Shown one piece after another: positions 13,964 through 33,171 of a DNA stretch of 37,880 bases. This DNA comes from an uncultured Lachnospiraceae bacterium. Its GTDB lineage: Bacteria > Bacillota > Clostridia > Lachnospirales > Lachnospiraceae. The first letter of the stretch is position 1, and every line of letters starts with the position of its first letter. The stretch lies in the NCBI GenBank assembly GCA_947175435.1, contig CAMWMS010000005.1, forward strand, positions 1 to 37,880, given 5' to 3'. The notes under the pieces were generated by a model. That model ran no database searches. It was given only the letters and a program-made list of their open reading frames with translations, and was not told where the DNA came from. A program made the translations under genes and the position numbers.

Positions 13964-13964
13964 A

Positions 13965-14336
13965 ATGGAAATACATGAATCCGCGGAGGATTATTTAGAG
14001 ACGATCCTCATTTTAAAAGAGCGCTCCGGACAAGTCCGCTCCATCGACATTGCCACGGAGATGAATTACAGCAAACCCAGTATTAGCGTAGCCATGAAGA
14101 AGCTGCGCGAGAACGGCTATATACAAGTGAATAAGGACGGCTATATCACCCTTACCGATACCGGCTATGCGATCGCCTCCGATATCTACGACCGACATAA
14201 AGTACTGACAGCCTTCTTCGTATCGCTCGGCGTAAACGAAAAGACTGCCGCCGCAGATGCATGCCGGATCGAACACGACTTAAGCCCTGAGACTTATGAG
14301 AAAATCAGGGAACACGCACTGAAAACGGTCGGATAG
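13965..14336 (+). CDS. DtxR/MntR-family metal-dependent regulator (short form)
   Basis: The 123-residue product has the winged helix (EDYLETILILKERSGQVRSI, YSKPSISVAMKKLRENGY) and the dimerisation domain of the DtxR/MntR family, without the SH3-like third domain. Putative metal ligands are D9, E12, H78, C100, E103 and H104. Asp at 9 is MntR-like, whereas Cys at 100 is the DtxR-like choice where B. subtilis MntR has Glu99. Metal selectivity is therefore uncertain. ATG 13965 follows GGAGG by 6 nt and sits one base after the upstream stop, so it is translationally close to the GT2-TPR gene. A manganese- or iron-sensing regulator inside a glycosyltransferase operon is unexpected. Confidence 0.9.
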   Translation: MEIHESAEDYLETILILKERSGQVRSIDIATEMNYSKPSISVAMKKLRENGYIQVNKDGYITLTDTGYAIASDIYDRHKVLTAFFVSLGVNEKTAAADACRIEHDLSPETYEKIREHALKTVG

Positions 14337-17059: not shown

Positions 17060-17258
17060 TATTGTATTTCTATAAAAATGACAAGCATAAATATATACTT
17101 CATTAAAATAAAAACTGCCGAATAAATTAATGTATAATATCGCTCATAGGTTATTATCTTAATTGTCTGCGCATATATTCCGGGGTTTGGCATTAGGGCG
17201 GATGTTACTGGATTTATGATATAGATTATGATACTATATTCTCATGGAGATGAAGAAA

Positions 17259-18332
17259 ATGTGCCCTATATCAGTATGCATGATTGCCAAGAATGAAGAA
17301 AAGAATATCGAGAAGTGTCTTGCCGCAGTCAAGCCCTATGGGTTTGAGATCGTTGTGGCTGACACAGGTTCTACCGACCGGACGAAGGAGATTGCCGCCC
17401 GATACACCGATAAAATATATGATTTCAAGTGGATCGACGATTTCAGCGCCGCGCGGAATTTTTCGCTGAAACATGCTGCAAATGATTATGTGTTGATCCT
17501 TGACTGCGATGAAGTCATCACCGAGCTTGATATCGATCTTATGTCCGATATGATCAGACAGCATCCCGAATCCGTGGGAAGGCTCGCCATCGATAATCAC
17601 TATATCTCCAATCAGACTGACATGGTCTATCAGGACCGGCTGGGAAGACTTTTTAACCGTAAGCTCTTCCACTTTGAGTCCGCCATCCACGAGCAGATCA
17701 CTCACAATACGATGGGTATGCACTATGAGAGCTATGATCTGCCGCTTCTGATTGATCACGTCGGTTATCTGGGCAGTGTGACAGACCTTCGCAGTAAAGT
17801 GGAGCGCAACAACACACTCCTGTTCCACGAGCTTGAAAAAGATCCGGAAAATCCTTATCTCTATTTCCAGATCGGACAGTCCTATAATATGATCTATGAT
17901 TATGAGAATTCTTATACCTATTACGAGAAAGCATTGGAATACGATGTAGACCCACAGGAAGAATGGGTACAGATGATGATCATCGCCTATGCTAACGCTC
18001 TGCTTCACACGGGCAGACAGGCGGAGGCTCTGCAGCTTGAGTCAGTCTATGATGCCTTCGCAACCACATCCGACTTTTTCTGCTGTATGGGACAGATCTA
18101 TATGGCCAACGGACGGTATGTGAAAGCCATGATGGAATTCGTGAAGGCGATCCACTGTCCCATCGCCAGAGAGACCGGAACCAATTCCTTCATCCCTACC
18201 TACAACATCGGGCTGATCAATGAAATGATGGGAAAGACCGAAGATGCCTTGATGCATTACCGCAACTGCGGGGATTTTCCGATGGCCGTAGAGAAGGTGA
18301 AGGAGTTAGAAAGCAAACTTTCTAACGAATAA
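17259..18332 (+). CDS. GT2 glycosyltransferase with TPR repeats (paralogue 3)
   Basis: 357 residues from ATG 17259, chosen because GGAG lies 9 nt upstream and MCPISVCMIAKNEEKNIEKC aligns with the paralogues; an ATG at 17244 is the alternative. The GT2 domain shows VADTGSTDRTKEIA, DDFSAARNFS and DCDE. TPRs follow (PYLYFQIGQSYNMIYDYENS; TYNIGLINEMMGKTEDAL). All three GT2-TPR proteins share an IHEQ or VHEQ motif after the FNRK or VNRR segment (here SAIHEQITH), probably part of the acceptor site. It is monocistronic and convergent with the long minus-strand operon. The spacer 18333-18463 shows no clear terminator. Confidence 0.9.
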   Translation: MCPISVCMIAKNEEKNIEKCLAAVKPYGFEIVVADTGSTDRTKEIAARYTDKIYDFKWIDDFSAARNFSLKHAANDYVLILDCDEVITELDIDLMSDMIRQHPESVGRLAIDNHYISNQTDMVYQDRLGRLFNRKLFHFESAIHEQITHNTMGMHYESYDLPLLIDHVGYLGSVTDLRSKVERNNTLLFHELEKDPENPYLYFQIGQSYNMIYDYENSYTYYEKALEYDVDPQEEWVQMMIIAYANALLHTGRQAEALQLESVYDAFATTSDFFCCMGQIYMANGRYVKAMMEFVKAIHCPIARETGTNSFIPTYNIGLINEMMGKTEDALMHYRNCGDFPMAVEKVKELESKLSNE

Positions 18333-18463: not shown

Positions 18464-19717
18464 CTATACTTCAAACAATCTTGCTATCCCTGTCTCGTAA
18501 GAAAACGCATTCTTCACCTTTCTCTGCCCGGCTTCTGCGATCTGTCTCCGTTCTTCTTCATGAGACAGATAATAATGCACCTTATCAATACATTCTTCCA
18601 TACTGCCAAAGGCGGCGATCTCCACGCCTTCCTCAAAATGCTCTGTAATTTCGGGCTGGCGGTTGCTCAGCACGAACCCGCCGCATGCCATAATATCCAA
18701 TACCCTGAGCGGAATACCGGAATGAATGGATCGCAAGGAAATATTGAGATTGATCCTGCTGCCCGCAAAAACTAACGGCATCTGCGTATGGTAATCTACC
18801 GTGCCGTGGTTGTGCGCATTCAGCTCCGGCAGCTTCCCGGTATCGGAACCCGTATATAACCTGAAATCAAGATTCCTGTCAGCAATGCCGCGACCATCTG
18901 CTGTAACGCTGTCGTCACATGTACTCAACCGTCTCGCAATCCCAGTGAACAGCTTCCGCCGCTCTTCCACCGTTACCTTCTTCTCCAAAACCGCCGCCAT
19001 CAGAATGTCCTCCGGCCTTGCGAAATAATCCTCGCCCAGCATAAGTCCTTGCTCTTCCATAGGCTTCTGCAGTTCTATCAGATTAATCTGTCCTGACGCA
19101 ACTGCCTGCCCTAAGTAATCCTTTTCATAAGAGAAGCATTGCTGTTTAATTAAAGCCTCCATGCTGCCACAATCTGACGCTGCTACCTCTCTTTCACCAT
19201 CAAACAACAGATCATAGTAATTATGCCCATCCGTATACAAAGAACCTACAAAGGATACATCGCACTGATATTTCTCCCGCTCTGCTTGCGAAGCCCGGAC
19301 TATTGCTTCCTCAAAATATGCACAGTCTACCGCCAGCGGCGCGTGATAAACCGTATTGATACCGTAATCCTCCTCCAGCCGTCTTACCATCTCACGATCA
19401 AAAATGCCAATGTGATTGCACGAGTCACCTACCTGCTTCGCATACAATGTAAAATGCGGGCAGTCATACACCCACGCATAGTACGGTATTCCGCAAGTAT
19501 GACAGATCATGGAAACGATCGGGAAGTAATTATAAGACACTACCGCCTCCGCCGCCTCTCGATGAACCGCCTGTATCATCTCCATAGCAAGCTCCATATC
19601 CCGCGTGTAATGCTTACATTCCTTACGAAACCACACGACCTCAAATCCCATTTTTATTAAATTGTCCGCCAAGTTCTGTTCGTTGTTGGCTTGCCATGAA
19701 TATAATATAAGACGCAT
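18464..19717 (-). CDS. CgeB-type glycosyltransferase
   Basis: 417 residues, same subfamily as the protein at 14377: RLILYSWQANNEQNLADNLI, AVVSYNYFPIVSMIC and YYAWVYDCPHFTLYA in the N-terminal half, then CDVSFVGSLYTDGHNYYDLL. The C-terminal signature is INLNISLRSIHSGIPLRVLD, IMACGGFVLSNRQ and HEEERRQIAEAG. It is about 35 residues longer than its relative, mainly by an insert near 285-310 (VTADGRGIADRNLDFRLYTG). It is the last gene of the long minus-strand operon, 50 nt after the GT/GT/methyltransferase gene. Predicted cytoplasmic GT-B enzyme; donor unknown. Confidence 0.88.
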   Translation of the reverse strand: MRLILYSWQANNEQNLADNLIKMGFEVVWFRKECKHYTRDMELAMEMIQAVHREAAEAVVSYNYFPIVSMICHTCGIPYYAWVYDCPHFTLYAKQVGDSCNHIGIFDREMVRRLEEDYGINTVYHAPLAVDCAYFEEAIVRASQAEREKYQCDVSFVGSLYTDGHNYYDLLFDGEREVAASDCGSMEALIKQQCFSYEKDYLGQAVASGQINLIELQKPMEEQGLMLGEDYFARPEDILMAAVLEKKVTVEERRKLFTGIARRLSTCDDSVTADGRGIADRNLDFRLYTGSDTGKLPELNAHNHGTVDYHTQMPLVFAGSRINLNISLRSIHSGIPLRVLDIMACGGFVLSNRQPEITEHFEEGVEIAAFGSMEECIDKVHYYLSHEEERRQIAEAGQRKVKNAFSYETGIARLFEV

Positions 19718-19767
19718 AAACCTTTATTCCGTATAAACTAAATCCTTTCTCACATATTTCATTCAGA

Positions 19768-21798
19768 TTATCTGGGGCGTTTCTGTGCCCTGACTATATA
19801 TTGGAATGTTGTATACATCCACTCCTCCGTCTGATCTGATAGACCAAGCAGCGTTTCCACAATAGCCTGTTCTCTGTCAGATATGGCAAAAACGCGCCTA
19901 TCGATATCCTTTACTTCATAACCCGCATTCCGGAATAAATTCATAATCTCATAATAGGTAAAGAAATGTATATGAGTCCGATCCAACAGTCCCACGTCTT
20001 GATACACAAATCTTCCTTCCAGCAACTGTTCCATAACCGATATATGCATAACATTGGGTATGCAGGCAATAATACATCCGGCTTCATTCAAGCTTTCGCG
20101 GCACATTTCGACCACTTCTTCCGGATGCCGCAAATGTTCCAATACATCACCGAAAATAATATAATCGAACTTTTCCCCGAAAGGAATCCGCAGCTCATCT
20201 ATATTCCCGTATTTGGCTTCGGTAACATGCTTTGCTATTTCCACTGCAGCCTCATTGATATCCAAACCATACGTCTTGCATTTCGGAAAACGATTCTGAA
20301 TCTCAACCAAAGTTGCACCCAAATCACACCCCACTTCGAGAACTTTAAATTCTTCTTCTTTTTCCTCCTGAATACGCGCTGCCAGTAACCGGTTAGGTTT
20401 TAAATTAAAGTAATTCATCCCCCATTCCTTCTTCATGAACGCTCTGGCATTGAAGCACCATTCTTCTGCAACACTATATATTTCATCGCATTGATGGAAG
20501 CTTTCATATGCGTATGCGTATAGACATACAATCTGCGCTAACCCTCCCTGAATCATTCGGAGTGAATAATCAGTCAGAACCTCCTCCGGATGACTCAGTT
20601 CTTCCCGAAACAATCCGTTTTGTTCAAAAATATCTCTCCGCGCCGCCCACATTTTCCAATTGGCACACAATACTTTATCGTACGCTTTCCCACTCCGCCG
20701 TCTGTTGCCATGCCGCCGGATCAGCGACAATTCCTCTTTACTCTTGACAGCGCTTCTTTCGTTTGGAAAGAAATTGTTCGTACACGGACTTGCCATTGCC
20801 GCATGATCTGACTCCAGAGCTCTTGCAAGCACTCTCAGACTTCTTTTCTCAGGATACACACCTGCCTCCAGAAAGACGATGCACTCCTGAGTTTCAAAGT
20901 TGGTCAGAACCGTATTCCATAGTTTCCCATAACCTTGTACTCCTTCGTCAAACCATAGATATTCATACTGTCCCGACGACAGCCACTGTGCAGTATCCTC
21001 CTCCGATTCGTTAACCGCTATGATAATATTTGCAATTCCATCAACTCCGCCAAGCCATTCAAGCGTATCCCGTAACTGATCCAACCTCCGATGTACCGTC
21101 AATACTACGGTAACTTTGTATCCTTCAAGATCCGTCTCATCCTCTTGGAAATACTCCTGCAAAAATTTTTGTCTTTCTCCGTCATACGCATTCATAAGCG
21201 ACAATGCGCTGTCATGCATGCACCACGGTTCATCGAGTGCCGGCACTACAACTTTATATCCACGACGTATAAACTCCTGACTTTGCGAGCAGTCATAGAA
21301 ATCCCATTTATCAAATATGTCTTCCCGCCACGGAATATCATATTGTGTGATCATGAGCAGACCATCTATAGCCTCCACTTCTGTCAACTCGGTTCCTCCC
21401 GGGCGGAATAAGTTATCACCAAGATATCCCGGTAAGTAAACTGCCCCACACCTTTTTCCCGCCCACATCACACCGCTGTCCGGGAGTTCAGGCGATCCGA
21501 TCATGCCGATCATGCCAATCTGTTCATCTTTTTTAAAAACATCCAGAAAGTCCCGTATAAAATCACGATTTATTATAAAAGAGTCCTGATGCAGATATAC
21601 CTTATACTTTGCGTCGGAAGCCTGCATCCCCTCATTATATCCGGATGCCATAGATTTCGCTTCTTCCACCGTAAGTACTTCGATCTGATACCCTTCCGGA
21701 ACATTCAGATGGTAAATATAATGCAGACATTCCTCCGTATAAAGCCGATCACTGCTGCAGATCACAAAGCAGACTTTCCTTTCGTTGACTTCATTCAT
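19768..21798 (-). CDS. Trifunctional fusion: two GT-A domains plus SAM methyltransferase
   Basis: 676 residues in three modules. Residues 1-220 are an HxD-type transferase (Glyco_tranf_2_5-like) with EEAKSMASGYNEGMQASDAK, LHQD at 69-72 and EAIDGLLMITQYD. Residues about 228-450 resemble a second GT2 fold (TVVLTVHRRLDQLRDTLEWL), but the usual DxD position reads FLEAGVYPE, so it may be inactive or bind differently. Residues 480-676 are a class I methyltransferase: motif I VLEVGCDLGATL (486-497), YGLDINEAAVEIAK and DVLEHL at 551-556. It could add a sugar and then methylate it, capping the glycan. Its ATG overlaps the stop of the upstream helical-domain gene (ATGA), implying coupled translation. 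Confidence 0.88.
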   Translation of the reverse strand: MNEVNERKVCFVICSSDRLYTEECLHYIYHLNVPEGYQIEVLTVEEAKSMASGYNEGMQASDAKYKVYLHQDSFIINRDFIRDFLDVFKKDEQIGMIGMIGSPELPDSGVMWAGKRCGAVYLPGYLGDNLFRPGGTELTEVEAIDGLLMITQYDIPWREDIFDKWDFYDCSQSQEFIRRGYKVVVPALDEPWCMHDSALSLMNAYDGERQKFLQEYFQEDETDLEGYKVTVVLTVHRRLDQLRDTLEWLGGVDGIANIIIAVNESEEDTAQWLSSGQYEYLWFDEGVQGYGKLWNTVLTNFETQECIVFLEAGVYPEKRSLRVLARALESDHAAMASPCTNNFFPNERSAVKSKEELSLIRRHGNRRRSGKAYDKVLCANWKMWAARRDIFEQNGLFREELSHPEEVLTDYSLRMIQGGLAQIVCLYAYAYESFHQCDEIYSVAEEWCFNARAFMKKEWGMNYFNLKPNRLLAARIQEEKEEEFKVLEVGCDLGATLVEIQNRFPKCKTYGLDINEAAVEIAKHVTEAKYGNIDELRIPFGEKFDYIIFGDVLEHLRHPEEVVEMCRESLNEAGCIIACIPNVMHISVMEQLLEGRFVYQDVGLLDRTHIHFFTYYEIMNLFRNAGYEVKDIDRRVFAISDREQAIVETLLGLSDQTEEWMYTTFQYIVRAQKRPR

Positions 21799-22211
21799 AC
21801 TTCAAGTTTTCCCTCCGCTACTTTTCTCTGAATAAATGCCTGCACCTTCTCCTTATATACCGCATTACAATATGCCTCAATGAATAATTCCGGCAGAGAA
21901 ACATGATTCTGATGACAAAATTCACAAAACTCCTCTTCATCATCCAACACATCAAATGCAATCCGTCTGAGATAAAATTTCACCTTCGTATCCCGCTCCA
22001 ACAGCTCGTCTACCCCCGATACCTTAGAAAAGAGTATCTGCTGTCCTTCCTCTCTTTCCGCGGTACAGACCGGAATCAGATAAAAAATCTTTAAAAGCTC
22101 TCTGTTTGACTTTGCAAGCTTCTCGTTTGCCAGTAACAGGCTCTCCACCTCATCATATTGCTTCTTCGCAAACAGATCATTGACCTGTTCCCACAAGTTT
22201 TGCCCATCCAT
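21795..22211 (-). CDS. Stand-alone helical KFYLRRI-domain protein
   Basis: This 138-residue, all-helical, TPR-like protein matches no family I can name. Its core is VNDLFAKKQYDEVESLLLAN, then KFYLRRI at 78-84 and a C-terminal helix pair. The same domain is fused to the N-terminus of the transferase at 27478 and to the C-terminus of the transferase at 25278. Here it is a separate gene that overlaps the related transferase gene (19768) by ATGA. It therefore probably works as a partner or acceptor-binding subunit of the HxD-type transferases. The ribosome site is weak (AAAGGG). Confidence 0.82.
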   Translation of the reverse strand: MDGQNLWEQVNDLFAKKQYDEVESLLLANEKLAKSNRELLKIFYLIPVCTAEREEGQQILFSKVSGVDELLERDTKVKFYLRRIAFDVLDDEEEFCEFCHQNHVSLPELFIEAYCNAVYKEKVQAFIQRKVAEGKLEV

Positions 22212-22265
22212 ATTGATTCATATCCCTTTCTCTATATTCCGGTCATTCAAATTTCTCACCTAATA

Positions 22266-25200
22266 CTATAATATCTTTTCTATAATGAACTGTTTTGACT
22301 TCTCTATCTCTACTGCCAATTTCCTATTTACCGCATCATAATCAATATCTTCTATGAATTCCTCTACATCATACTGATCCTCATTTTCCAGAATCCTGTT
22401 TTTTATTTCAGGAAACAAGGCAAATGTAGCAAACCTGTCTGACTCTCTGTTTTTTACCGTCACAAAATTCTTCTCAAATATCATGGAAAAGCAAGTTCCA
22501 TGGTATGAGTCGGTGATGACAAAATCGGCATTGCGAAGATATGAAAGCCACTCCTCAACTGTCAACTCTGTCCTAATATTGTCATATTCCAATACCCGCA
22601 GATAATAGTCTGTTGCCCGCAGATTTGCATCCATTATATTGATCAGCTTGATCCCGCCAAGCTTCTGTTGTATTTTCAAACACAGTTCCCGCTTTTCTTC
22701 AGTAGGATTCAAAAAATATACTGCAATATACGGATCTATCTCCGCTTTGGGCGTCTTGCGAAGGAGAATATCATAATCCTTTTCTCCCAACAAAAATACC
22801 GGATCTAAAACCCACGTCGCCTCCACACCATATCGATCATGGCAAAGATCAACGCCAACTTTTTCTCTGACGGAAATGGCCTGAAATCTATGATACAGAT
22901 CCGTTCCTATTTCCGCAGGAGCTGCCGCATCAACATTTCCGAAAGAAGTTGCGTAAGACACTTTCTTCTTGCCCTCTTCTACAAAATCAAGCAGAAAATA
23001 ATTGCCATATCCATAGTATTGTGCATATATATAATTCCAATTTTGATCAGAAGCTACAATAAATGTATCACAGCACTTATTCAACATCTCATAATCATAA
23101 TTCGGAAAATACTCCGAACTTAAAACATAATGTTCTTCTGCAAACTTTTTAAACTGTTTGATCGGTGTTAATGTACAATAGTTGTCCAACACAACCATTT
23201 TCTTCCCCTTTGTCTGCAGAAACGTGTGCAATGCATAGTTTGTTAATGCGTTACCGTAATTGATCCCCCACATGCAAACCAATGCCATATCAAAGCGGAT
23301 TCGCTCCTTGACAACCATCATCATGTCTGCTAAGGATCCATAATTACCCTTTCTCCACTCTTCAAAGAATAATTCTCTACATTTCGGTTCTTTCACAGAC
23401 TCACTGATACATGGATTGAAATTCTCTGCCGCCTCCGTCTGCAGACTTACAATTTTCTCAAATTCCGGCAGTATACTCTTAAAGAAATATGCGCCTTTCT
23501 TCGTATTCAGTGTTACAAACGACGTCCCCATTCCATCATCAAATTGATAGATTTTATTAATTCCCCAGAAATCTCCCAAGCTTAAATCGCTGTACTTTTT
23601 ATTTTTAAATTTGCAATCATAACAACTCTTTCGTAATGCCCAATTATTTAGGAAACCATACATATATGGCTCTTTCTTCTTTCCAACGTATTCCGTGCCG
23701 TTCTGATATTTCACATACAGCCCTACACCCCATCCAAACACGTCTTTCTTCCTAAATGAAATCTCCGCAATCTCTTCTTTGCTCTCCAGGCAAGAATCAA
23801 ATACCTTCTGTGATGGCACACCGTGGCATACAACATCCACAAGTATCAGATTCTCATATTCTTTTCCCACATAGCGCTTAAGCCCTGCAAGCTGACAGCT
23901 GCATCCCGTAAAAAGAACTTTCGTTCCCTGTTCCGCCAATTCCTTAACCCGCTGATAGGCCTTCCCCACATTACTCTGTACATATTTGGACGACATCATC
24001 CGTTCCACATCTTCAATCTGATCCGATACAATATGTTCTACCTGCCAGTCATCATTCCAGACTGCACCGCATACATAGCCTCCCTCTGACAAGATCTTGT
24101 CTGCAAGTACTCTGAATACACCGCCTGACGAACTTCTTCTGCGGATTTCCGAATTACTCATAACCGCATAGCAATCATCCGGCAAGACTGTCCCCGGCGT
24201 TTCATTACAAACCGGGCATACTGCTTTACATCCACCACATTTAATGCATTTATTATTATCTATTACCGGTATAAGAAATCCGTCCTCATCACATCCTTGT
24301 GATATAGCTCCTACAGGGCATACATTATAGCACGCCATACAACCCGTACATGCTGTAACTCCGGTAATATCAACAGTCGCAATTTTCTCCGGATGACTGG
24401 AAGGATATAATTTCTCCCACTTTTCCTGTACATAGGTCAGATAATCCTGATCTTTTGACAACTGCATAATACATCTGCAGAAGAATTCCTCGCACTGATA
24501 TCCACATGCTTCATGGTAAACCGTTTCAAACTTCTGTCGTTTCAAACCGACCAGCGCCAATTCATCTTTGTACATATCCATAATGTAGCACTGTGTAATA
24601 ATCTTATCCTTGTTGCGTTTTCCCACACTGTTTTCTGACTCATGGGCAACCGCCAGCACCTCGTTTACTAACATAATTCCATATTTTTGTGCAATGCGGA
24701 TTGTCAATTCATAGTCTTCCAGCGAATTTAACTGCTCATTGAAACCGCCTATTTCAATAAAAATGCTTTTCTTCATTACCAGAGTAATCATACCCACCAG
24801 AGAATTGATCAGAAGCGTATAAAATACATAGCCGGTTTTATGCATTATATCAACACCTTCCGGCGGATAAATATCAGATCCGGGGCCGTTTGTATAGAAA
24901 AGACTGTATACCGCACCCACATTCTGATTACATCCTGCAAAATGAGCCATCTGTTTTTCCAGCTTATCACGATACCATTCATCGTCACTGTCATGAAAAG
25001 CAATATATTCACCGCTTGCATAAGATACACCGATATTTCTGGATGCCCCCGCTCCAAGATTATCATCATTTCTGACATAGACAATATTAATATCCGTAAT
25101 ATCTCCATACTCGGCTTCTATAAATTCCATTGTATTATCCGTCGAACAATCATCAACAATAATAATTTCAAAATTCCGGTATGTCTGATTCAGCACACTG

Positions 25201-25274
25201 TCAATAGAGCGTTTCAAAGTATGCCTTCTATTGTATGTAGGTATGATAACACTTACTAACACTTTCTGATCCAT
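22266..25274 (-). CDS. Four-module fusion: GT2, 2[4Fe-4S] ferredoxin, FrhB/FdhB-like, polysaccharide pyruvyl transferase
   Basis: 1002 residues. Residues 1-270 are a GT2 transferase (VSVIIPTYNRRHTLKRSIDS, VDDCSTDN, metal site HDSDDEW). Residues 300-355 are a two-cluster ferredoxin: C309, C312, C315, C319 and C343, C346, C349, C353. Residues about 360-640 match the FrhB/FdhB family (RRRSSSGGVFRVLADKIL, FTGCSCQLAGLKRY, VVCHGVPS, CYDCKF, SLGDFWGI). Residues 660-960 match polysaccharide pyruvyl transferase (WGINYGNALTNYALHTF, ASDQNWN, LDPVFLL, TDSYHGTCFS). The last two families are often adjacent genes in polysaccharide loci; here they are joined with a GT2 in one chain. Expected activity: add a sugar and modify it with pyruvate; the redox role of the FeS/FrhB part is unknown. 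Start: GGAG 8 nt upstream, 3 nt after the previous gene. Confidence 0.92.
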   Translation of the reverse strand: MDQKVLVSVIIPTYNRRHTLKRSIDSVLNQTYRNFEIIIVDDCSTDNTMEFIEAEYGDITDINIVYVRNDDNLGAGASRNIGVSYASGEYIAFHDSDDEWYRDKLEKQMAHFAGCNQNVGAVYSLFYTNGPGSDIYPPEGVDIMHKTGYVFYTLLINSLVGMITLVMKKSIFIEIGGFNEQLNSLEDYELTIRIAQKYGIMLVNEVLAVAHESENSVGKRNKDKIITQCYIMDMYKDELALVGLKRQKFETVYHEACGYQCEEFFCRCIMQLSKDQDYLTYVQEKWEKLYPSSHPEKIATVDITGVTACTGCMACYNVCPVGAISQGCDEDGFLIPVIDNNKCIKCGGCKAVCPVCNETPGTVLPDDCYAVMSNSEIRRRSSSGGVFRVLADKILSEGGYVCGAVWNDDWQVEHIVSDQIEDVERMMSSKYVQSNVGKAYQRVKELAEQGTKVLFTGCSCQLAGLKRYVGKEYENLILVDVVCHGVPSQKVFDSCLESKEEIAEISFRKKDVFGWGVGLYVKYQNGTEYVGKKKEPYMYGFLNNWALRKSCYDCKFKNKKYSDLSLGDFWGINKIYQFDDGMGTSFVTLNTKKGAYFFKSILPEFEKIVSLQTEAAENFNPCISESVKEPKCRELFFEEWRKGNYGSLADMMMVVKERIRFDMALVCMWGINYGNALTNYALHTFLQTKGKKMVVLDNYCTLTPIKQFKKFAEEHYVLSSEYFPNYDYEMLNKCCDTFIVASDQNWNYIYAQYYGYGNYFLLDFVEEGKKKVSYATSFGNVDAAAPAEIGTDLYHRFQAISVREKVGVDLCHDRYGVEATWVLDPVFLLGEKDYDILLRKTPKAEIDPYIAVYFLNPTEEKRELCLKIQQKLGGIKLINIMDANLRATDYYLRVLEYDNIRTELTVEEWLSYLRNADFVITDSYHGTCFSMIFEKNFVTVKNRESDRFATFALFPEIKNRILENEDQYDVEEFIEDIDYDAVNRKLAVEIEKSKQFIIEKIL

Positions 25275-25277
25275 ATC

Positions 25278-26381
25278 TTATTCTCCAATCTTCCCCAGAG
25301 TATTCCGTACTTTCGCCTGATCGTATACGCAATGCTCTATCATATAATCAAGTCCCTGCAAAGATATCCTGTCACTACGAACATATTCTTTTAAAACAAC
25401 GCCTGCCTCTTCCAAATCGTATTCTATCCGCCTTAGGTAAAACTTTATTTCCGTATATTTTAGTAATAATGCCTCATAATCTGCACAGTCATTGCAAAAA
25501 CAATCCAGCTTTTGTGCAGTTTCCCTTTTTCTTATTTCAAAAATATGCTGCATAACCGAGAGGTCTGTCATCCTTATTTGAAGGTCATTAGCCTTCATAA
25601 TCATCATTTCCACCGCCCCATACTCTTTCTGTGCGATCAATCTCTTTATAAGATCCAGAATCGATTGTATTAAAGCATATCTTTCCTGCAGGGAATCCAT
25701 CATTTCCGGTTTTTGATAGACATATCCGAAATCCCGATAGGCTTCGCAGAAACATCTTCTCGCCTCATCGTAATTCTGCAATTTACTGTGACCACAGTCA
25801 TGCAGACACCATGCTTCTTTCTGATAAGGAACTGCTACCTGATACCCTTTCCTCCTAAATTCGCATGATTGGGACAAATCATAGAAATCCCACCCTGTAA
25901 TAATATCCTCACGCCACTCTATGTCATATTGGGTTGCCATAAACATACCGTCAATTGCATCCACTATGACCGTTTCCTGTGCTTCTGTCTGGAAATTAAC
26001 TTCCAGCTCTGCAGCGGTATTCCACGCTCTGGTGCGTCCACAGTTCCAGGTATTCCATGCAATACCGTCCTTGTCCAGTTCCCTTTCCCCAAGCACCCCT
26101 GCCATACCTATATCCGGTTTCTCTTTGAACATTTCTATCAGATCACACAGTAAATCAGAATATATCAGAAAAGTATCCTGATGAATATATATTTTATACT
26201 TTGCATCAGAACTGTGCATTGCCTCATTATAAGCCGCCGCCATGGAAACCGCTTCTGATATATTCGTAAATGAGAGTTCATAACCTTCCGGTACTTTTAA
26301 TGCCTGAATATATCTGATACACTCTTCCAAATACTGTTCCTGATTGCTCGCTACGATTATCTCTATCTTCCATTCATTCAT
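25278..26381 (-). CDS. HxD-type glycosyltransferase with C-terminal helical KFYLRRI domain
   Basis: 367 residues from ATG 26381. Residues 1-225 are a Glyco_tranf_2_5-like GT-A domain: VPEGYELSFTNISEAVSMAA, YNEAMHSSDAKYKIYIHQDT with HQD at 67-69, and DAIDGMFMATQYD. Residues about 240-367 are the helical module with KFYLRRIEYD at 313-322. The order is the reverse of the protein at 27478. An alternative GTG start at 26405 would overlap the preceding stop by 4 nt (GTGA). I prefer ATG because its product aligns with the start of the related domain at 21798. The gene is paired with the GT2 gene at 26402, as 27478 is with 28646. Confidence 0.85.
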   Translation of the reverse strand: MNEWKIEIIVASNQEQYLEECIRYIQALKVPEGYELSFTNISEAVSMAAAYNEAMHSSDAKYKIYIHQDTFLIYSDLLCDLIEMFKEKPDIGMAGVLGERELDKDGIAWNTWNCGRTRAWNTAAELEVNFQTEAQETVIVDAIDGMFMATQYDIEWREDIITGWDFYDLSQSCEFRRKGYQVAVPYQKEAWCLHDCGHSKLQNYDEARRCFCEAYRDFGYVYQKPEMMDSLQERYALIQSILDLIKRLIAQKEYGAVEMMIMKANDLQIRMTDLSVMQHIFEIRKRETAQKLDCFCNDCADYEALLLKYTEIKFYLRRIEYDLEEAGVVLKEYVRSDRISLQGLDYMIEHCVYDQAKVRNTLGKIGE

Positions 26382-26401
26382 ATCTTGCTCATCCCACGCT
26401 A

Positions 26402-27439
26402 TCACAAATAGTACTTTCTAAGAACCTGATGAATTACCAAAACACTCTCATCCGTAATCTCCATATTCAAAACAAGCAATAGCAACTCCTCCAGAACAGT
26501 TCTTTCTTTCAGATATGGATTTTCCCGTATATTAGGGAAAATTTGCAACATTGCCCTTACCAGTAATTTAACCTCTTCCACTGTAAGAAATTTTCCCTTT
26601 TTCATAATCAGGCTGATATTGTAGGCATACCCCCATCGAAAAAATAAATATGCTATTTCATCATAATATCGCTGTAAAAATTCCCGTTTTTCTAAATCTT
26701 GCGCCAGAAGCAGCCACACTTGTATATTATCGATCCTATGTTGATCCCATCCGCTACGCGTTGTACTTCCAGGCGATATATAATAAAAATAAAGTTCTTC
26801 ATCCAAGAAATAATGCCTTTTCTCGTAAAATAACACCGGTACCGTAAAACAAGGCTCCTCAAATATCAAATGCTCTGCAAATTGAATATGATTATCCTGA
26901 ATCATACTCATCCTATAAAATTTTTTCCAGCAATTGTTAATCAGTGTATACTCGTTTTTCAGTAAAAAATCCTTTCTCTCTTCTTCCGTATTCACTTCCA
27001 GCAGACAGCTTTCATTACCTTCCTGTACAGATACTAAAGAATATCCCTCATCCTTCTTAAAATCCTTATGGCGGAATTGTACTACATCCGCATCATACTT
27101 CTTGGCCCTGTCATACAAGTGTTCCATTGCTTCAAACGCCAACCTGTCATCTGCATCGCAAAACATCAGATATTCCCCGCCTGCATAAGAAATTCCTGCA
27201 TTTCTGGCTCCGCCTTGACGCATGTTCTTCTCTAGTTGTATGGCTATAACCGTATCTGGGAACGCTCTTTCATATTGCATGATTAACTCCCATGTTGCGC
27301 CTTCGTCCGTCGATGCATCATCGACTAAAATAATCTCTATATTTTCTATGCCTATCGTCTGTTTTATCAAATGTTCCATGCATTTGTCCAAATACGCTGA
27401 CGCATTATAACATGGCACGACAACACTTACATATTTCAT
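26402..27439 (-). CDS. GT2 glycosyltransferase
   Basis: 345 residues. The N-terminal GT-A domain has VSVVVPCYNASAYLDKCMEH, TIGIENIEIILVDDASTD, NMRQGGARNAGISYAGGEY and the metal site CDADD. The C-terminal part (about 210-345), with FLDEELYFYYISPGSTTRSG and helical segments, is shared with the products of 28646 and 29713. That places it in a three-member subfamily, about half identical by eye. Start: GGAGATTAGC then ATG. It overlaps the start region of the next transferase gene, with which it forms a cassette. No membrane segment. Donor and acceptor unknown. Confidence 0.9.
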   Translation of the reverse strand: MKYVSVVVPCYNASAYLDKCMEHLIKQTIGIENIEIILVDDASTDEGATWELIMQYERAFPDTVIAIQLEKNMRQGGARNAGISYAGGEYLMFCDADDRLAFEAMEHLYDRAKKYDADVVQFRHKDFKKDEGYSLVSVQEGNESCLLEVNTEEERKDFLLKNEYTLINNCWKKFYRMSMIQDNHIQFAEHLIFEEPCFTVPVLFYEKRHYFLDEELYFYYISPGSTTRSGWDQHRIDNIQVWLLLAQDLEKREFLQRYYDEIAYLFFRWGYAYNISLIMKKGKFLTVEEVKLLVRAMLQIFPNIRENPYLKERTVLEELLLLVLNMEITDESVLVIHQVLRKYYL

Positions 27440-27477
27440 GCTAATCTCCTTCTATACCTACTTCTAAAACATTGCCT

Positions 27478-28602
27478 CTACCGCTGAAGATATTCTCTTA
27501 CAAACTTTTCTCTTTCCCCGTTATAGTCCTTCAGATTAATAAATCCGCAGTCATGAACACACCAAGGTTCTTCTGTTTTCGGCACTACCACTTTATAACC
27601 ATGTCGCATAAACTCCATACTTTGAGAACAGTCATAGAAATCCCATTTATCAAATAGATCCTCCCTCCACGCGATATCATACTGTGTAATCATGAGCAGT
27701 CCGTCTATTGCTTCCACCTCCTCCAGTGGCTGAGTACACGGATTCGACAGCATAACTGTCTCATAAATATGCTGTTCATAGATCATTCCATACCGTTTCT
27801 CATCCCACATAATTCCGTTTGCAGGAATATGGGGTGCTCCAATAACTCCGATCATTCCGATTTCTGCATCGGATTGGAATATCCGCAATATGTCCTTCAG
27901 AAAATGCGGATAAACGATAAATGTATCATGATGAAGATATACCTTATACTTTGCTTCGGAATGCTGCATGGCCTCATTATAGCCGGAAGCCATAGACTTA
28001 GCATCCTCCACCGTCAAAATGTCTATATGGTAACCATCCGGTACTATCAGTTGATTGATGTAATATATACACTCATCAACATAAACCGGATCATTGGTAC
28101 AGATAATAAAACAAATCTGCATTTCAGTCGAAACATCTGTCTCAAATGTTCCTTGCTCTTCTGTATGATCCGTCCTCCACGTATCCGCCCCCGCACGCAC
28201 TGACATACTCCCATTCATCGCAGTAATAATTTTCTTTTTATTAACTATACTGAAATCAATAACTCGCATTAACTCGTAAGAAGATACTTGGTTCTGTGCC
28301 AAAAATTGATGGAAAGATCCCAAATCATATGCAACGCCAAACTCGATCCTTCTCAAATAAAATTTCAGTATTGTATAGCGGTTCAGCAAATCTTTCATAT
28401 CGGAAATCTTAGAAAAAATATCAGCCTGACCTGCCGCTTTCTCCTGCTCATAGATCGTGCTCAGATAGCAGACCGTAGCAAGATCATTATCCTTCTCTGT
28501 TATAGATTTGTAAGATAACAGTAGTGCTTTGATCTCATCATATCTTCCATTCTGCAGCAATTCATCTGTCTGCTGTTTCAGTTGTGACGCATTCATATTC
28601 AT
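27478..28602 (-). CDS. Helical KFYLRRI domain fused to HxD-type glycosyltransferase
   Basis: 374 residues. Residues 1-125 are the helical module (KFYLRRIEF at 80-88). A Ser/Thr-rich linker covers 128-158. Residues 160-374 are a Glyco_tranf_2_5-like transferase with CFIICTNDPVYVDECIYYIN, VEDAKSMASGYNEAMQHSEA, HHD at 224-226 and EAIDGLLMITQYDIAWREDL. The transferase part is strongly similar to residues 1-220 of the protein at 19768, also at the DNA level. This is therefore the fused counterpart of the split pair 21795/19768. Start ATG 28602 has AAAGGA 8 nt upstream. It sits 43 nt after the GT2 gene 28646. Confidence 0.87.
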   Translation of the reverse strand: MNMNASQLKQQTDELLQNGRYDEIKALLLSYKSITEKDNDLATVCYLSTIYEQEKAAGQADIFSKISDMKDLLNRYTILKFYLRRIEFGVAYDLGSFHQFLAQNQVSSYELMRVIDFSIVNKKKIITAMNGSMSVRAGADTWRTDHTEEQGTFETDVSTEMQICFIICTNDPVYVDECIYYINQLIVPDGYHIDILTVEDAKSMASGYNEAMQHSEAKYKVYLHHDTFIVYPHFLKDILRIFQSDAEIGMIGVIGAPHIPANGIMWDEKRYGMIYEQHIYETVMLSNPCTQPLEEVEAIDGLLMITQYDIAWREDLFDKWDFYDCSQSMEFMRHGYKVVVPKTEEPWCVHDCGFINLKDYNGEREKFVREYLQR

Positions 28603-28645
28603 AATTCATTTCCTTTAAATGCTCTATTTTGCCTATATTAATTAT

Positions 28646-29677
28646 TCATGCATATTTTCCAAGAATATCGTTGATCACTTTCACACTCTCATCTGTGATT
28701 TCCATATCAAGTACTGTCAGCATCAATGAATCCCATGCGCTCTGGCTTTCCTTTAAATATTTATTCTTTCTTACATTCGGGAACATCTCCGCCACCATAT
28801 CGATCAGGAAACTCAATTCATCTTTCGTTATAACATATCCCTTCTGAAGAGTCATGCGAATGCTTAATCCAAGCCCCCATCTCATAAACAAATATTCCAG
28901 TTCCGAATAATATTTCTTAAAGAGTCCTCTGGACTCCAAATCATCCATCAAATGCATCCATACCTGCGGATTATCCCACTTATGTACTCCCCAGTCACCC
29001 CGTACCGTACTTCCCTGCGATAAATAATTAACATAAAGCACCTCATCCAAAAAATAATGCCTCTTCTCATATAAGCGTAGCGGTAGCATAAATGAAGGTT
29101 CTTCAAAAATCAAATGCTCGGCAAAAGCAAGATGATTTTCGCGAACCATTGATAATCTGCAGAATTTTCTCTGCGACCCCAGGGTTAAACGCCCATCCAT
29201 ACGCAAAAGAAATTCTTTTCTCTGCTCTTCCGTCTCCAGTACTATGAATTCATTTCGGCTTCCCTTTACCAATTCTACTACAATATCGTGATTGCCTACA
29301 TCAGTATTTAAAAATTCAACCACATCTGCATCATATTCCTTTGCCGCACGATAGCAGTGTTCCAGCGCCTCTTCCAGAAGCCAGTCATCCGCATCACAAA
29401 ATTGGATATACTCACCGCTTGCATAAGAAACGCCGACATTTCTGGCTCCGCCCTGCCTCATATTCTGCTCCAATGAAACGGCTATGATCGTATCAGGAAA
29501 CTGCCGTTCATAATCACTGATCAAATTCCATGTCGCACCGTTATCCGTAGAGGCATCATCAACCAGAATAATCTCCATATTTTCAATACCAATCGTCTGA
29601 TGCACTAACTGCTTTATGCATTTATCAAGAAATTTGGTTGCATTATAACATGGGATCACCACACTGACTGCTTTCAT
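28646..29677 (-). CDS. GT2 glycosyltransferase (tandem copy)
   Basis: 343 residues: VSVVIPCYNATKFLDKCIKQ, TIGIENMEIILVDDASTDNG, NMRQGGARNVGVSYASGEY, the metal site CDADDWL, then LIFEEPSFMLPLRLYEKRHY and the C-terminal LTVLDMEITDESVKVINDIL. It is a tandem duplicate of the gene at 29713, with stretches of near-identical DNA separated by diverged middle parts. Both have the same GGAAGGAGAAG ribosome site. Together with 27478 it forms a GT2 plus HxD-transferase cassette repeated at 26402/25278. Cytoplasmic. Confidence 0.9.
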   Translation of the reverse strand: MKAVSVVIPCYNATKFLDKCIKQLVHQTIGIENMEIILVDDASTDNGATWNLISDYERQFPDTIIAVSLEQNMRQGGARNVGVSYASGEYIQFCDADDWLLEEALEHCYRAAKEYDADVVEFLNTDVGNHDIVVELVKGSRNEFIVLETEEQRKEFLLRMDGRLTLGSQRKFCRLSMVRENHLAFAEHLIFEEPSFMLPLRLYEKRHYFLDEVLYVNYLSQGSTVRGDWGVHKWDNPQVWMHLMDDLESRGLFKKYYSELEYLFMRWGLGLSIRMTLQKGYVITKDELSFLIDMVAEMFPNVRKNKYLKESQSAWDSLMLTVLDMEITDESVKVINDILGKYA

Positions 29678-29712
29678 CTATCTTCTCCTTCCATTCTGCA
29701 GCAATTCATTAA

Positions 29713-30747
29713 TCAGGCGTATTTATGCAGAATATTATTGATTACCTTCACGCTCTCTTCGGTGATTTCCATATCAAGTACCGTCAGCATCAATGAATCC
29801 CATGGATCACGCTCTTCCCTAAGATATTTGTTCTTCCTGACCCCTGGGAACATCTCCGCCACCATATCGATCAGGAATCCCAATTCGTCTTTCGTCAGAA
29901 CATATCCCTTTTGAAGCGCCATACGAATACTTAGTCCGAACCCCCAGCTCATAAACAAATATTCTAATTCTAAATAATACTTCTTAAAAAGTTCTCTGTC
30001 TTTCAGGTCATTCACCAAATGCCGCCATACATGCGGATTGTCCCATTTATGTTCTCCCCAGTCACCCCGTATGGAGCTGGACGGAGAAAGGAAACATATA
30101 TACAGTTCCTCATCCAGAAAATAATGCCTTTTTTCAAATAAGCGCACAGGAACCATAAAGGAAGGCTCCTCAAAAATCCTATGTTCTACAAACCGAATTT
30201 TGTTTTCCTTCAACATGGACAGTCTATATAGTTTTTTCTGCGATCCCAATGACAGTTTTTCATCGACTTGTAAAAGAAACTCCTTCCGCTTCTTCTCCGT
30301 ATCAATTTCCGTCAAAAAGCTGCCTTTCCCCTTCTCTACTATATCTATTTCTATTCTATGATCCATGATGTCTTTAATCCGAAACTCCACTACATCTGCA
30401 TCATACTCCCGAGCCGCATCGTGTAAATGCTCCAATGCCTCCGGCATCAACCAGTCATCCGCGTCGCAGAAAATTAAATATTCCCCGGCAGCATGAGAAA
30501 TTCCGATATTTCTGGCTCCGCCCTGCCTCATATTCTGCTCCAATGAAATGGCTACGATCGTATCAGGAAACTGCCGTTCATAATCACAGATCAAATTCCA
30601 TGTCGCACCGCTATCCGTAGAGGCATCATCAACCAGAATAATCTCTATATTCTCAACACTAATCGTCTGTTGTAACAAGTGGTTAATACATTTTTCTAAA
30701 TAATTGGATGCATTATAACACGGAACCACTACACTGACTGCCTTCAT
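29713..30747 (-). CDS. GT2 glycosyltransferase (tandem copy)
   Basis: 344 residues from ATG 30747; this start has GGAAGGAG upstream and overlaps the previous stop (ATGA). Motifs: KAVSVVVPCYNASNYLEKCI, TISVENIEIILVDDASTDSG, NMRQGGARNIGISHAAGEY, CDADDWL. The C-terminus is almost the same as in the neighbouring copy (LTVLDMEITEESVKVINNIL). The central specificity region (about 115-160) differs most, which suggests a different acceptor or donor for each copy. It is the third gene of the long minus-strand operon. Confidence 0.9.
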   Translation of the reverse strand: MKAVSVVVPCYNASNYLEKCINHLLQQTISVENIEIILVDDASTDSGATWNLICDYERQFPDTIVAISLEQNMRQGGARNIGISHAAGEYLIFCDADDWLMPEALEHLHDAAREYDADVVEFRIKDIMDHRIEIDIVEKGKGSFLTEIDTEKKRKEFLLQVDEKLSLGSQKKLYRLSMLKENKIRFVEHRIFEEPSFMVPVRLFEKRHYFLDEELYICFLSPSSSIRGDWGEHKWDNPHVWRHLVNDLKDRELFKKYYLELEYLFMSWGFGLSIRMALQKGYVLTKDELGFLIDMVAEMFPGVRKNKYLREERDPWDSLMLTVLDMEITEESVKVINNILHKYA

Positions 30748-31928
30748 CTGCCTTCTCCTTCCACCCATGCAAGCAACTCTTTTATTTTCTTCTCATAGGT
30801 GTAGCACCTCATAACTTTTGCATGTCCGTTCCGGGCAATCTGCTCCCGCTCCTCATCATGCCTAAGATAATACTCCACTTTCTCCATTAATTCCTCCGGG
30901 GTCCTGAACATCACGATTTCTTCATCCTCTTTAAACAACTCTGCTGTCTCCGGCGAGTAATTTGTCAATGCAAATCCTCCGGCTCCTAAAATATCCAGCA
31001 CTCTCTGTGGTGTCCCACCCTCTATTCCTTTGAGAGAAATATTCAAATTGATCTTACTGTTTTTAAAGGCATAATGGAGATCCTGCTCGGAGCAGATCGG
31101 CGGCATGATCTTTACATTGTTCAGCCTTTGCTCCGCCGTTTTACTCGTAGTGTATAGTGTTACAGGGAATCTCTCCGCCAATAGATTCAGTACACATATC
31201 CTCTCGATATTAGCGACTTTACGTGTTAAATATCCATTCTCAAAATAAGTCGAATCCGCGATGTCAAAGAAATTAACCATCTGAAACCCCGGCGTTACTT
31301 TGCGAATATATGCGACTAATTCATTGCTCACAGATCCGTTGATCCGATTGATGCCGTCCCAACGAAAGGCTGCCCTCTCAAACACGCCTACAAAATAATC
31401 CTGCAATTCCTGCGGAAGATGATTACAGAATTCATCATAAAAATTATTATCATATAGTTGTCCTACAAAGCAGACCTCATCATTGTAATGATGATCACCT
31501 CCGGTGCAGCAGCTCTTATCCCATTCCAGTATCTGCTCAAAATCCACCGCCAAGGGCTGATAAAGGACATGGCGTATTCCCCCATCCACAAATCTTTGGG
31601 CATCGACCTTATCAAATATAGAGAACCTACAATTATCCATTCTCCCATATGTTGTAAATATTTTATAATACGGTGCATCCCAAATAAGTGATATGTAGAT
31701 CACATTAGCTCTTTCTACCGCAACGGCAATTGTGTCGATCAAATGAATCGACATCACATGCGTAATTTCATGCTCCTTAATGATGGAGACCAATTCATCT
31801 GCCTTCTTCTCATTAGCAAAAGCATCTAACAGCCTTTCCGGATATACTTCAACGTCTACCTTCAGCCTGCGCAGTGCATTAATAATGCCTTCTGTTTTAG
31901 CGGTTCCGTGTACATATAAAATTCTCAT
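30744..31928 (-). CDS. CgeB-like glycosyltransferase (second subfamily)
   Basis: 394 residues: MRILYVHGTAKTEGIINALR, HVMSIHLIDTIAVAVER, ISLIWDAPYYKIFTTYGRMD, EVCFVGQLYDNNFYDEF, and the signature INLNISLKGIEGGTPQRVLD followed by ILGAGGFALTNY and HDEEREQIARNGHAKVMRC. It differs from the 14377/18464 type in a shorter middle region and in KGIEGG for RSIKSG. Overlaps by 4 nt (ATGA) connect it to both the upstream and downstream genes, showing tight coupling. Tandem paralogue of the gene at 31925. Expected to be a cytoplasmic GT-B enzyme. Confidence 0.88.
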   Translation of the reverse strand: MRILYVHGTAKTEGIINALRRLKVDVEVYPERLLDAFANEKKADELVSIIKEHEITHVMSIHLIDTIAVAVERANVIYISLIWDAPYYKIFTTYGRMDNCRFSIFDKVDAQRFVDGGIRHVLYQPLAVDFEQILEWDKSCCTGGDHHYNDEVCFVGQLYDNNFYDEFCNHLPQELQDYFVGVFERAAFRWDGINRINGSVSNELVAYIRKVTPGFQMVNFFDIADSTYFENGYLTRKVANIERICVLNLLAERFPVTLYTTSKTAEQRLNNVKIMPPICSEQDLHYAFKNSKINLNISLKGIEGGTPQRVLDILGAGGFALTNYSPETAELFKEDEEIVMFRTPEELMEKVEYYLRHDEEREQIARNGHAKVMRCYTYEKKIKELLAWVEGEGR

Positions 31929-33106
31929 GAGTTACCTTCCACCCAGTCCAATAATTTCTTTAGTTTCTTTTCGTAAGTATAACATTCTATAACCTTATCA
32001 CACCCCGCCTTTGCTATCTGCTCCCGCTCCTCATCATGCTGTAGATAGTACTCGACTTTTTCAAACAATTCCTCCGGCGTTCTATACATAACGATTTCTT
32101 TGTTTTCTTCGAACAGTTCCGCCGTTTCCACACAATAGTTTGTCAACACAAAACCTCCGGCTCCCATAATGTCGATAATTCGCTGTATTGTTCCGCCTTC
32201 GATGCCTTTTAAAGAAATATTCAGGTTGATCTTGCTACCTGCATAGACTACTGTCGCATCCTCCCCCGGTCGCACCGGAAGTCTGACTTCTACATTGCCC
32301 AGCTTGTCCGCTCCTACCTCGCTTGTGGTATGCAACACCACATGATATGCCTCGGAGAGAGTGTTTAACACGGCAATTCTTTCAATATTTGCAATTTTTC
32401 TTACCAGATATATCACTTCAAACAAATAGGTATCCTCGATATCCAGTCTGTTATCGATACGGAAATCCGGGCTGACCATCTCCATATATTTCAACATCTC
32501 TTTACTTGTTTTACCGTATATTCTGTTGATGCCATCCCAGCGAAATGCCGCCTCCTCAAAAATACTGTTAAAGTAATCTACAATAACCTGCGGCATGTTC
32601 TTTACACGCTCGTCAAACAGATTATCCTCATACAGATTACCCACAAAACAGATATCGTTGATATACTTTCCCTCTAATACCTTCTTCGCCTTTCTGTTCC
32701 ACATAATAACATCTGCTTTATTAACTGCCAGTGGCTGATACAGCGTATGAGGTATCCCGGCCTTCCGAAATCTTTCATTATCCAGCCGGTCGAACACAGA
32801 AAACCAACAGTTATCCATTTTACCAAATGGTGTGTATATCTTAATATAAGGGGCATCCCAAATCACCGAAACGTACTTGATCTTTGCCTGGTACGCCGCC
32901 ATAGCCAGATTATAGATCAGATGAATGGACATCAGATGGGTAATCCGGTGTCGCCTGATATATGCAACTAATTCTTCCGTCTCCTCATCATTCAGGATTG
33001 AATTATCCTGAACTTTCGGATATTCTTCCACTTTATAGCCTAATTTCCGCAGAGTAATCGGAATGTCCTTCGTATGCGCCATTCCATATACGTATAAGAT
33101 CCTCAT
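31925..33106 (-). CDS. CgeB-like glycosyltransferase (second subfamily)
   Basis: 393 residues from ATG 33106 (AGGAAAATATTG upstream; the frame could extend one codon to a TTG). Motifs parallel the neighbouring copy: HLMSIHLIYNLAMAAY, VSVIWDAPYIKIYTPFGKMD, DICFVGNLYEDNLFDERV, RWDGINRIYGKTSKEML, INLNISLKGIEGGTIQRIID and IMGAGGFVLTNY. It is the first gene of the 11-gene minus-strand operon and is preceded by the promoter at 33172-33200. Duplicate of 30744, with DNA similarity strongest around the C-terminal signature. Confidence 0.88.
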   Translation of the reverse strand: MRILYVYGMAHTKDIPITLRKLGYKVEEYPKVQDNSILNDEETEELVAYIRRHRITHLMSIHLIYNLAMAAYQAKIKYVSVIWDAPYIKIYTPFGKMDNCWFSVFDRLDNERFRKAGIPHTLYQPLAVNKADVIMWNRKAKKVLEGKYINDICFVGNLYEDNLFDERVKNMPQVIVDYFNSIFEEAAFRWDGINRIYGKTSKEMLKYMEMVSPDFRIDNRLDIEDTYLFEVIYLVRKIANIERIAVLNTLSEAYHVVLHTTSEVGADKLGNVEVRLPVRPGEDATVVYAGSKINLNISLKGIEGGTIQRIIDIMGAGGFVLTNYCVETAELFEENKEIVMYRTPEELFEKVEYYLQHDEEREQIAKAGCDKVIECYTYEKKLKKLLDWVEGNS

Positions 33107-33171
33107 CAATATTTTCCTCGCATAATTTTTCTGTTCGTATCACAACATTATCGTATTTTTCCACTAGTTAT

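Follow-up and report, generated by a model that had tools for sequence, protein, structure and literature searches.

A four-module Lachnospiraceae protein with FrhB-like and pyruvyl transferase domains, and its possible role in lactyl-ether formation

Architecture of the fusion gene

We analysed a stretch of 37,880 nucleotides from an uncultured Lachnospiraceae bacterium (contig CAMWMS010000005.1, positions 1 to 37,880; hereafter the window). One minus-strand gene in it encodes a protein that joins a family 2 glycosyltransferase (GT2), a ferredoxin, an FrhB/FdhB-like domain and a polysaccharide pyruvyl transferase (PSP) in a single chain. The open reading frame (ORF) at 22266-25274 runs from an ATG to a stop codon with no internal stops and encodes 1002 amino acids. 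Its modules, called as Pfam profile matches above the curated cut-off, are as follows.

22266..25274, minus strand: whole fusion gene, in the order GT2, 2[4Fe-4S] ferredoxin, FrhB/FdhB, PSP (ORF, Pfam and the relative in genome G700)
24405..25274, minus strand: GT2 glycosyltransferase module with its DSDD metal site, residues 1-290 (Pfam match 8-133)
24204..24359, minus strand: 2[4Fe-4S] ferredoxin module, residues 306-357, with eight cluster cysteines (Pfam and alignment)
23958..24170, minus strand: FrhB_FdhB_N, residues 369-439 (Pfam)
23469..23924, minus strand: FrhB_FdhB_C, residues 451-602, with conserved C460, C483, C551 and C554 (Pfam and alignment)
22449..23261, minus strand: polysaccharide pyruvyl transferase module, residues 672-942 (Pfam, alignment and tree)

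The E values were 2.5e-37 for Glycos_transf_2 (residues 8-133; 128.8 bits against a cut-off of 23.3), 2.4e-9 for Fer4 (two stretches, the best at 308-325), 3.7e-7 for FrhB_FdhB_N (369-439), 6.9e-17 for FrhB_FdhB_C (451-602) and 2e-35 for PS_pyruv_trans (672-942). The four modules had been predicted earlier from the letters of the sequence, and all of them were recovered within the intact frame. That prediction had also let its case depend on family similarity of the pyruvyl transferase region, which the profile search found. No MurA- or MurB-type domain was matched by Pfam in the protein. Among solved structures, the FrhB part had its best full-domain match in 8rja_E (E 1.2e-6), and the PSP part had no match at E up to 1.

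The residues expected of each module were largely those of the original prediction. The acidic metal site of the GT2, read from the translation as DSDD and VDDCST, is intact. The ferredoxin part contains two CxxCxxCxxxC motifs, and all eight cluster cysteines (C309, C312, C315, C319, C343, C346, C349 and C353) are in place. C458, C460, C551 and C554 had been named as the FrhB cysteines; the last three hold, whereas C458 does not, being cysteine in only 10 of 99 aligned FrhB rows, and the true fourth residue is C483. C460, C483, C551 and C554 are each cysteine in 97 of the 99 rows, an alignment that includes near-duplicates and the window sequence twice, and in this family such cysteines bind a cluster. 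The PSP part retains its conserved residues in SVRE (arginine), DPV (aspartate) and the predicted SYHG motif (histidine).

When the whole protein was searched against 397 Lachnospiraceae genomes, with two candidates scored in each, 136 of these genomes gave matches at E 1e-30 or better. Among the matches listed, the only other full-length one was in G700, a genome of another genus, where one open frame of 1026 amino acids aligns with window residues 18-996 at 40% identity and has the four modules of the window protein in unchanged order. The GT2 part of this relative lacks the acidic metal-site residues that the window GT2 keeps, and glycosyltransferase activity may therefore not be essential to the architecture; the predicted glycosyl transfer is plausible for the window protein. 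In G700, a flagellin gene with both flagellin domains is followed by a GT2-TPR protein and then by the fusion, which lies two genes behind flagellin as the link to flagellin in the original prediction had anticipated. Two genomes of the window's own genus were listed: G769 has an FrhB-PSP fusion without the GT2, and a profile search of G060 returned no FrhB match.

Coupling of FrhB and pyruvyl transferase genes

Among 200 Lachnospiraceae genomes, FrhB_FdhB_C was found at 87 places in 65 genomes, and PS_pyruv_trans was present in 109 genomes. At least 65 of the 87 FrhB places had one of the 150 PSP places listed no more than 15 kb away, 39 of them within 1.5 kb, and the two genes were on the same strand in 65 of 65 cases. 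Fused FrhB and PSP frames numbered 22 in 17 genomes. Fifteen had the PSP first, five had FrhB first (the window protein, G188, one in G105, G166 and G108), and two were mixed chains, namely PSP-FRH-PSP in G140 and PSP-FRH-PSP-FRH-PSP (1787 amino acids) in G105. Furthermore, GT2 is fused to PSP in G107 and G163, with FrhB in the adjoining gene. These varied fusions indicate that GT2, FrhB and PSP have been joined in several ways, and the census, which had been suggested along with the prediction, upholds the coupling of FrhB with PSP in both domain orders. In Enterobacteriaceae, FrhB was present in 2 of 392 genomes and each time had a PSP nearby, as the next gene in one and 1.4 kb off in the other.

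Several unusual chains were seen alongside these. The 1787-residue protein (L039:9353-14713) adjoins an 802-residue FRH-PSP protein. In G721, a protein of 1880 amino acids (L257:10181-15820) combines PSP and ferredoxin-FrhB with a hexapeptide stretch and has two matches to short-chain dehydrogenases. A viral contig (IMGVR_UViG_3300021254_001572; L234:3980-5128) bears an FrhB-PSP fusion without the ferredoxin part, whose frame runs off the contig end; it lies behind genes that resemble phage head genes by eye, so that a phage seems to carry the glycan-modifying pair. On another viral contig of 232 kb (L233:4001-5701), tblastn matched the FrhB-PSP region, and no ORF of at least 200 amino acids covered the match, whether translated with the standard code or with TAG as Gln.

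Lactylated glycans, reductase exchange and pyruvyl transferase phylogeny

FrhB genes of E. coli were searched for by blastn, first with the pair from Enterobacteriaceae and next with E. coli copies, a procedure that more divergent FrhBs would escape, and were found in 17 of 5,426 genomes: five of the O124/O164 family, three of the O69 family, eight with an IAI1-type cluster and one with the plasmid pBDSF8-3_3. An FrhB remnant was found on the plasmid p30COLEC-2 by blastn, and tblastn against plasmids and phages found no enterobacterial FrhB. All nine of the E. coli FrhB loci that were opened, the IAI1-type cluster and the plasmid among them, contained a PSP gene, whole or split. The gene order was wzx-FrhB-PSP in the O124/O164 cluster and rfbBDAC-FrhB-wzx-PSP in the O69 cluster.

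A review reports O-(1-carboxyethyl) sugars from several enterobacterial O antigens and from other surface glycans, and cites 4-O-[(R)-1-carboxyethyl]-D-glucose in an O antigen of Shigella dysenteriae (PMC10609480). The PSP gene of the O124/O164 cluster (L164:13095-14230 and L167:3880-5015) was intact in two of the five genomes and annotated as two coding sequences in three. We take the Shigella antigen to be that of type 3 and to equal E. coli O124, which would thus carry a lactyl ether, and we assume that O164 is without the lactyl group. The split gene would explain such a difference and agrees with it, but we rejected the split as proof of an unlactylated O164. A literature search for O124/O164 lactyl structures found none. 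O124 and O164 were listed by DebRoy et al. among the sets with identical clusters and occasional cross-reaction (PMC4732683).

Eight O150-type genomes were matched as well when the O69 PSP gene was the query. The three loci opened (FEX669, VCSW8 and PI24) all had the order rfbBDAC-nitroreductase-wzx-PSP, which is the O69 order with FrhB replaced. As annotated, wzx is broken in FEX669, wzx, wzy and PSP are broken in VCSW8, and PI24 is whole. The O69 and O150 PSPs are 48% identical and are sisters in the tree at 100/100, and the O150 antigen presumably carries 4-O-[(S)-1-carboxyethyl]-GlcNAc. In addition, two E. coli plasmids carry flippase-nitroreductase-PSP cassettes or parts of them. On pBDSF8-3_3, which is rich in insertion sequences (IS) and may be rearranged, two PSPs of 99.7% identity lie one by a nitroreductase fragment and the other by FrhB. 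Two of 384 Enterobacteriaceae genomes have a relative of the plasmid nitroreductase, and in each it is part of a polysaccharide locus that also contains a PSP. Since two unrelated flavin reductase families fill one slot beside one transferase family, reduction of the transferase's own product appears to be needed. FrhB was found in none of the 20 genomes reached via wcaK loci, and E. coli WcaK is a ketal maker; ketal pyruvylation therefore seems not to need a reductase. On small IS-rich E. coli plasmids (L165, L170 and L171), capsule cassettes were also observed that combine a flippase, a PSP and a GT2 with either FrhB or a nitroreductase; some are broken.

The O124/O164, O69 and O150 pairs have the same predicted pair of activities as the window protein, an FrhB or nitroreductase together with a PSP, and their PSPs fall in its supported group in the tree. 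However, they are separate genes without a GT2 fusion and their FrhB has one N-terminal cysteine cluster, whereas the window protein is a single chain.

For the tree, 82 ORFs with a PSP match were reduced to 63 by removing repeat fetches, split genes, ORFs shorter than 300 amino acids and weak matches. A first tree of 64 rows gave a long-branch warning. Rows under 15 name prefixes, including WcaK and several fused PSPs with long branches, were then removed to leave 47 rows; the fused PSPs dropped had stood outside the window's group in the 64-row tree. The row L171_U_9330 was relabelled as FrhB-near, because an FrhB remnant precedes this PSP. In the 47-row tree, the window PSP belonged to a group of 18 rows with a support of 100/99, made up of a Lachnospiraceae half and an enterobacterial half. 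When O150, L265 and G700 were added, the group had 20 rows at 100/99, with the window and G700 as sisters at 100/99. For every PSP in the 18- and 20-row groups, an FrhB or a nitroreductase, complete or as a remnant, is either fused to it or encoded within 15 kb. In the 64-row tree, which includes the long-branch rows, this group again appeared, with 20 rows, at a Shimodaira-Hasegawa-like approximate likelihood ratio test support of 99. The nitroreductase-linked PSP of L265 fell outside the 20-row group. WcaK branched far off in the 64-row tree, and in blastp at 1e-3 it matched none of the seven other PSPs compared.

Klebsiella capsules offered an independent comparison with chemical structures. 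In PMC4616057, 46 of 79 capsule types are non-pyruvylated, and K8, K22, K37 and K66 among these hold a pyruvyltransferase gene; the cps loci there contain 35 pyruvyltransferase genes, two nitroreductase genes and one coenzyme F420 hydrogenase gene. A table of 79 K-antigens, with columns that we counted ourselves, gives O-lac in K22, K37 and K66 only and lists K8 with pyruvylated galactose (PMC6856556); the text of that paper names the group 'O-lactose'. In K22 the group is 4-O-[(S)-1-carboxyethyl]-D-glucuronic acid, going by a reference title in PMC3857182. The probability that PSP genes and O-lac overlap in this way by chance is 2.6e-4, or 3e-3 with the near-identical K22 and K37 loci counted once. 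K22, K37 and K66 combine a PSP gene and O-lac with the absence of pyruvate, and therefore the PSP genes of pyruvate-less types belong to lactylated capsules.

A putative lactyl-ether pathway and its alternatives

Considering these comparisons, we think it probable that the FrhB and PSP parts of the window protein form one two-step machine that adds an O-(1-carboxyethyl) group, that is, a lactyl ether, to a sugar. For the substrates, the product and the electron path we infer the following. The PSP would move the pyruvyl carbon skeleton from phosphoenolpyruvate (PEP) onto a single hydroxyl of the sugar, and an enolpyruvyl ether or an oxocarbenium-like intermediate would result. In ordinary members of the family, closure through a second hydroxyl would turn this intermediate into a pyruvate ketal. 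Before closure, the flavin of FrhB, with electrons supplied via the ferredoxin clusters, would reduce this intermediate to a stable lactyl ether. The fusion would hold the short-lived intermediate beside the flavin. The GT2 part probably transfers the modified sugar, and in the G700 relative it may merely hold it. The original prediction had an electron-dependent step going with pyruvyl transfer, which these results support. It had also proposed that a pyruvate ketal (+70 Da) is the end product and that the redox step is separate; a lactyl ether (+72 Da) is in better agreement with the comparisons in Klebsiella and E. coli.

This chemistry has precedents. In UDP-N-acetylmuramic acid synthesis, MurA places a PEP-derived enolpyruvyl ether on a sugar hydroxyl, and MurB then reduces it with a flavin to the lactyl ether, the same logic as that proposed here. 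Unlike that pair, the window protein matches neither MurA nor MurB, is encoded among glycosyltransferase genes and has an FrhB-type reductase with Fe-S cysteines. It may thus work like MurA/MurB without being a member of those families. The FrhB/FdhB family (COG1035), whose founding members have an F420 partner, includes the vinyl reductase BciB and HCAR; the window protein has the FrhB_FdhB_N and FrhB_FdhB_C domains and the conserved cysteines in common with it. BciB converts vinyl to ethyl groups by reduction, a precedent chemically close to the proposed step. CsaB, Pvg1p and WcaK belong to the same Pfam family (PF04230) as the window PSP, and WcaK shares its conserved arginine, aspartate and histidine. 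These three enzymes make a ketal, whereas the product proposed for the window protein is a lactyl ether. The MurA step is also described in PMC10435577, where R148 and H308 of CsaB are critical for PEP. We assume that the conserved arginine and histidine of the window PSP correspond to these two residues.

More broadly, we lean with some reserve towards the view that PS_pyruv_trans proteins with a flavin reductase of the FrhB or nitroreductase type constitute a second, independently evolved lactyl-ether pathway for the surface glycans of gut Lachnospiraceae as well as for Klebsiella capsules and the O antigens of E. coli. Its most condensed form would be the window protein, an oxygen-sensitive chain that unites glycosyl transfer, enolpyruvyl transfer from PEP and reduction driven by electrons, and that decorates flagellin. 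If so, the 'pyruvyl transferase' family splits into ketal makers and lactyl-ether makers that the neighbouring reductase distinguishes. The polysaccharide chemistry of the IAI1 type or O69 would alter the genome-based prediction of capsule and O-antigen structures. In the open literature searched, subscription papers being outside the search, the accessible texts name no enzyme pair for O-(1-carboxyethyl) sugars and leave the FrhB-like gene of O-(1-carboxyethyl) loci unexplained. A search joining FrhB, pyruvyl transferase and polysaccharide found nothing, and one on Butyrivibrio carboxyethyl found nothing relevant by title.

Some observations weigh against the lactyl-ether pathway. Many PSPs have no visible reductase partner: in the 40 fetched Lachnospiraceae loci of FrhB-less PSPs, a nitroreductase relative lay within 0.5 kb of the PSP in two, and 38 had none in view. 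Outside the window's group, the 47-row tree is mixed, with 12 FrhB-near, five fused, two nitroreductase-near and ten unlinked rows, and no conserved column separates the 39 linked from the 18 unlinked PSP rows. Identity between the FrhB part of the window protein and its enterobacterial matches is low, at about 22-24%, and the enterobacterial FrhBs carry a single N-terminal cysteine cluster where the window protein has two. The nitroreductase and F420 genes of Klebsiella were assigned to K22/K37 and K66 by our own inference. The serotype-level structures of O124, O164 and O150 are assumed here, and we know of no polysaccharide structure for O69 or the IAI1 type. A search for further alignment rows gained two loci, and the structure model of the window protein, built from a two-row alignment, had a mean predicted local distance difference test score (pLDDT) of 35.9 and was not used. 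Finally, five FrhB loci (L053, L054, L056, L057 and L059) adjoin a TagD-like cytidylyltransferase gene and have no PSP by the local profile, which missed some PSPs that Pfam finds (L074). Four of them were read by eye; Pfam was applied to L054 only and confirmed its TagD-like cytidylyltransferase and LicD neighbour. These loci imply at least one other role for FrhB in glycan loci, and the idea that FrhB serves PSP alone was rejected on their account.

One alternative is that the PSP makes a pyruvate ketal and that FrhB performs an independent redox step, a reduction or an oxidation, at another position of that glycan. PMC10435577 describes CsaB and Pvg1p as ketalpyruvyltransferases, the conserved family residues are kept in the window protein, and the FrhB loci beside TagD-like genes agree with a separate reaction. 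However, WcaK does without FrhB, and the Klebsiella types with a PSP gene recorded as non-pyruvylated are lactylated, except K8, which is pyruvylated in the other table. The replacement of FrhB by a nitroreductase near a sister PSP would also be unexpected for an unrelated step, and we regard this explanation as unlikely. It is quite improbable, in our view, that FrhB feeds the reduction of another intermediate, for example a nucleotide-linked one or a polyol, and is paired with PSP by the sharing of polysaccharide loci. The five FrhB loci adjoining TagD-like genes, with LicD present in at least one, and the dehydrogenase and hexapeptide parts of the 1880-residue PSP and FrhB protein would suit it, but the 22 fusions in both orders, the single strand shared by all 65 near pairs, and the nearby PSP in both Enterobacteriaceae genomes and all nine opened E. 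coli loci would not. A degenerate or misassembled gene without joint function, a risk that the original prediction had raised and to which the draft assembly (293 contigs, 82% complete) and the degenerate GT2 of G700 might point, is very hard to credit, since the full-length relative in another genus has the same module order at 40% identity.

The product of the proposed lactyl-ether machine most likely belongs to a flagellin glycan. The fusion gene sits in a same-strand run of mostly glycosyltransferase genes at 18464-33109, and its neighbours in the run are as follows.

25278..33109, minus strand: upstream genes, Glyco_tranf_2_5, GT2 and DUF3880/Glyco_trans_1_2 glycosyltransferases (ORFs, Pfam)
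18464..22211, minus strand: downstream genes, a small protein without a Pfam match, a Glyco_tranf_2_5/GT2/methyltransferase fusion and a DUF3880 glycosyltransferase (ORFs, Pfam)

The fusion is the single FrhB_FdhB_C match in the genome; two more PS_pyruv_trans matches and two flagellin matches lie on other contigs. Elsewhere in the window, a FliD-like protein with only partial FliD_N and FliD_C matches is encoded at 6436-7770 on the plus strand. GT2-TPR glycosyltransferases of the same kind as the flagellin neighbour in G700 are found at 11735-12832, 12860-13963 and 17244-18332, also on the plus strand. A DtxR-like iron-dependent repressor gene lies amid glycosyltransferase genes at 13944-14336 (plus strand), and a UDP-galactopyranose mutase gene at 9975-11111 (minus strand) suggests that galactofuranose may be present in the glycan.

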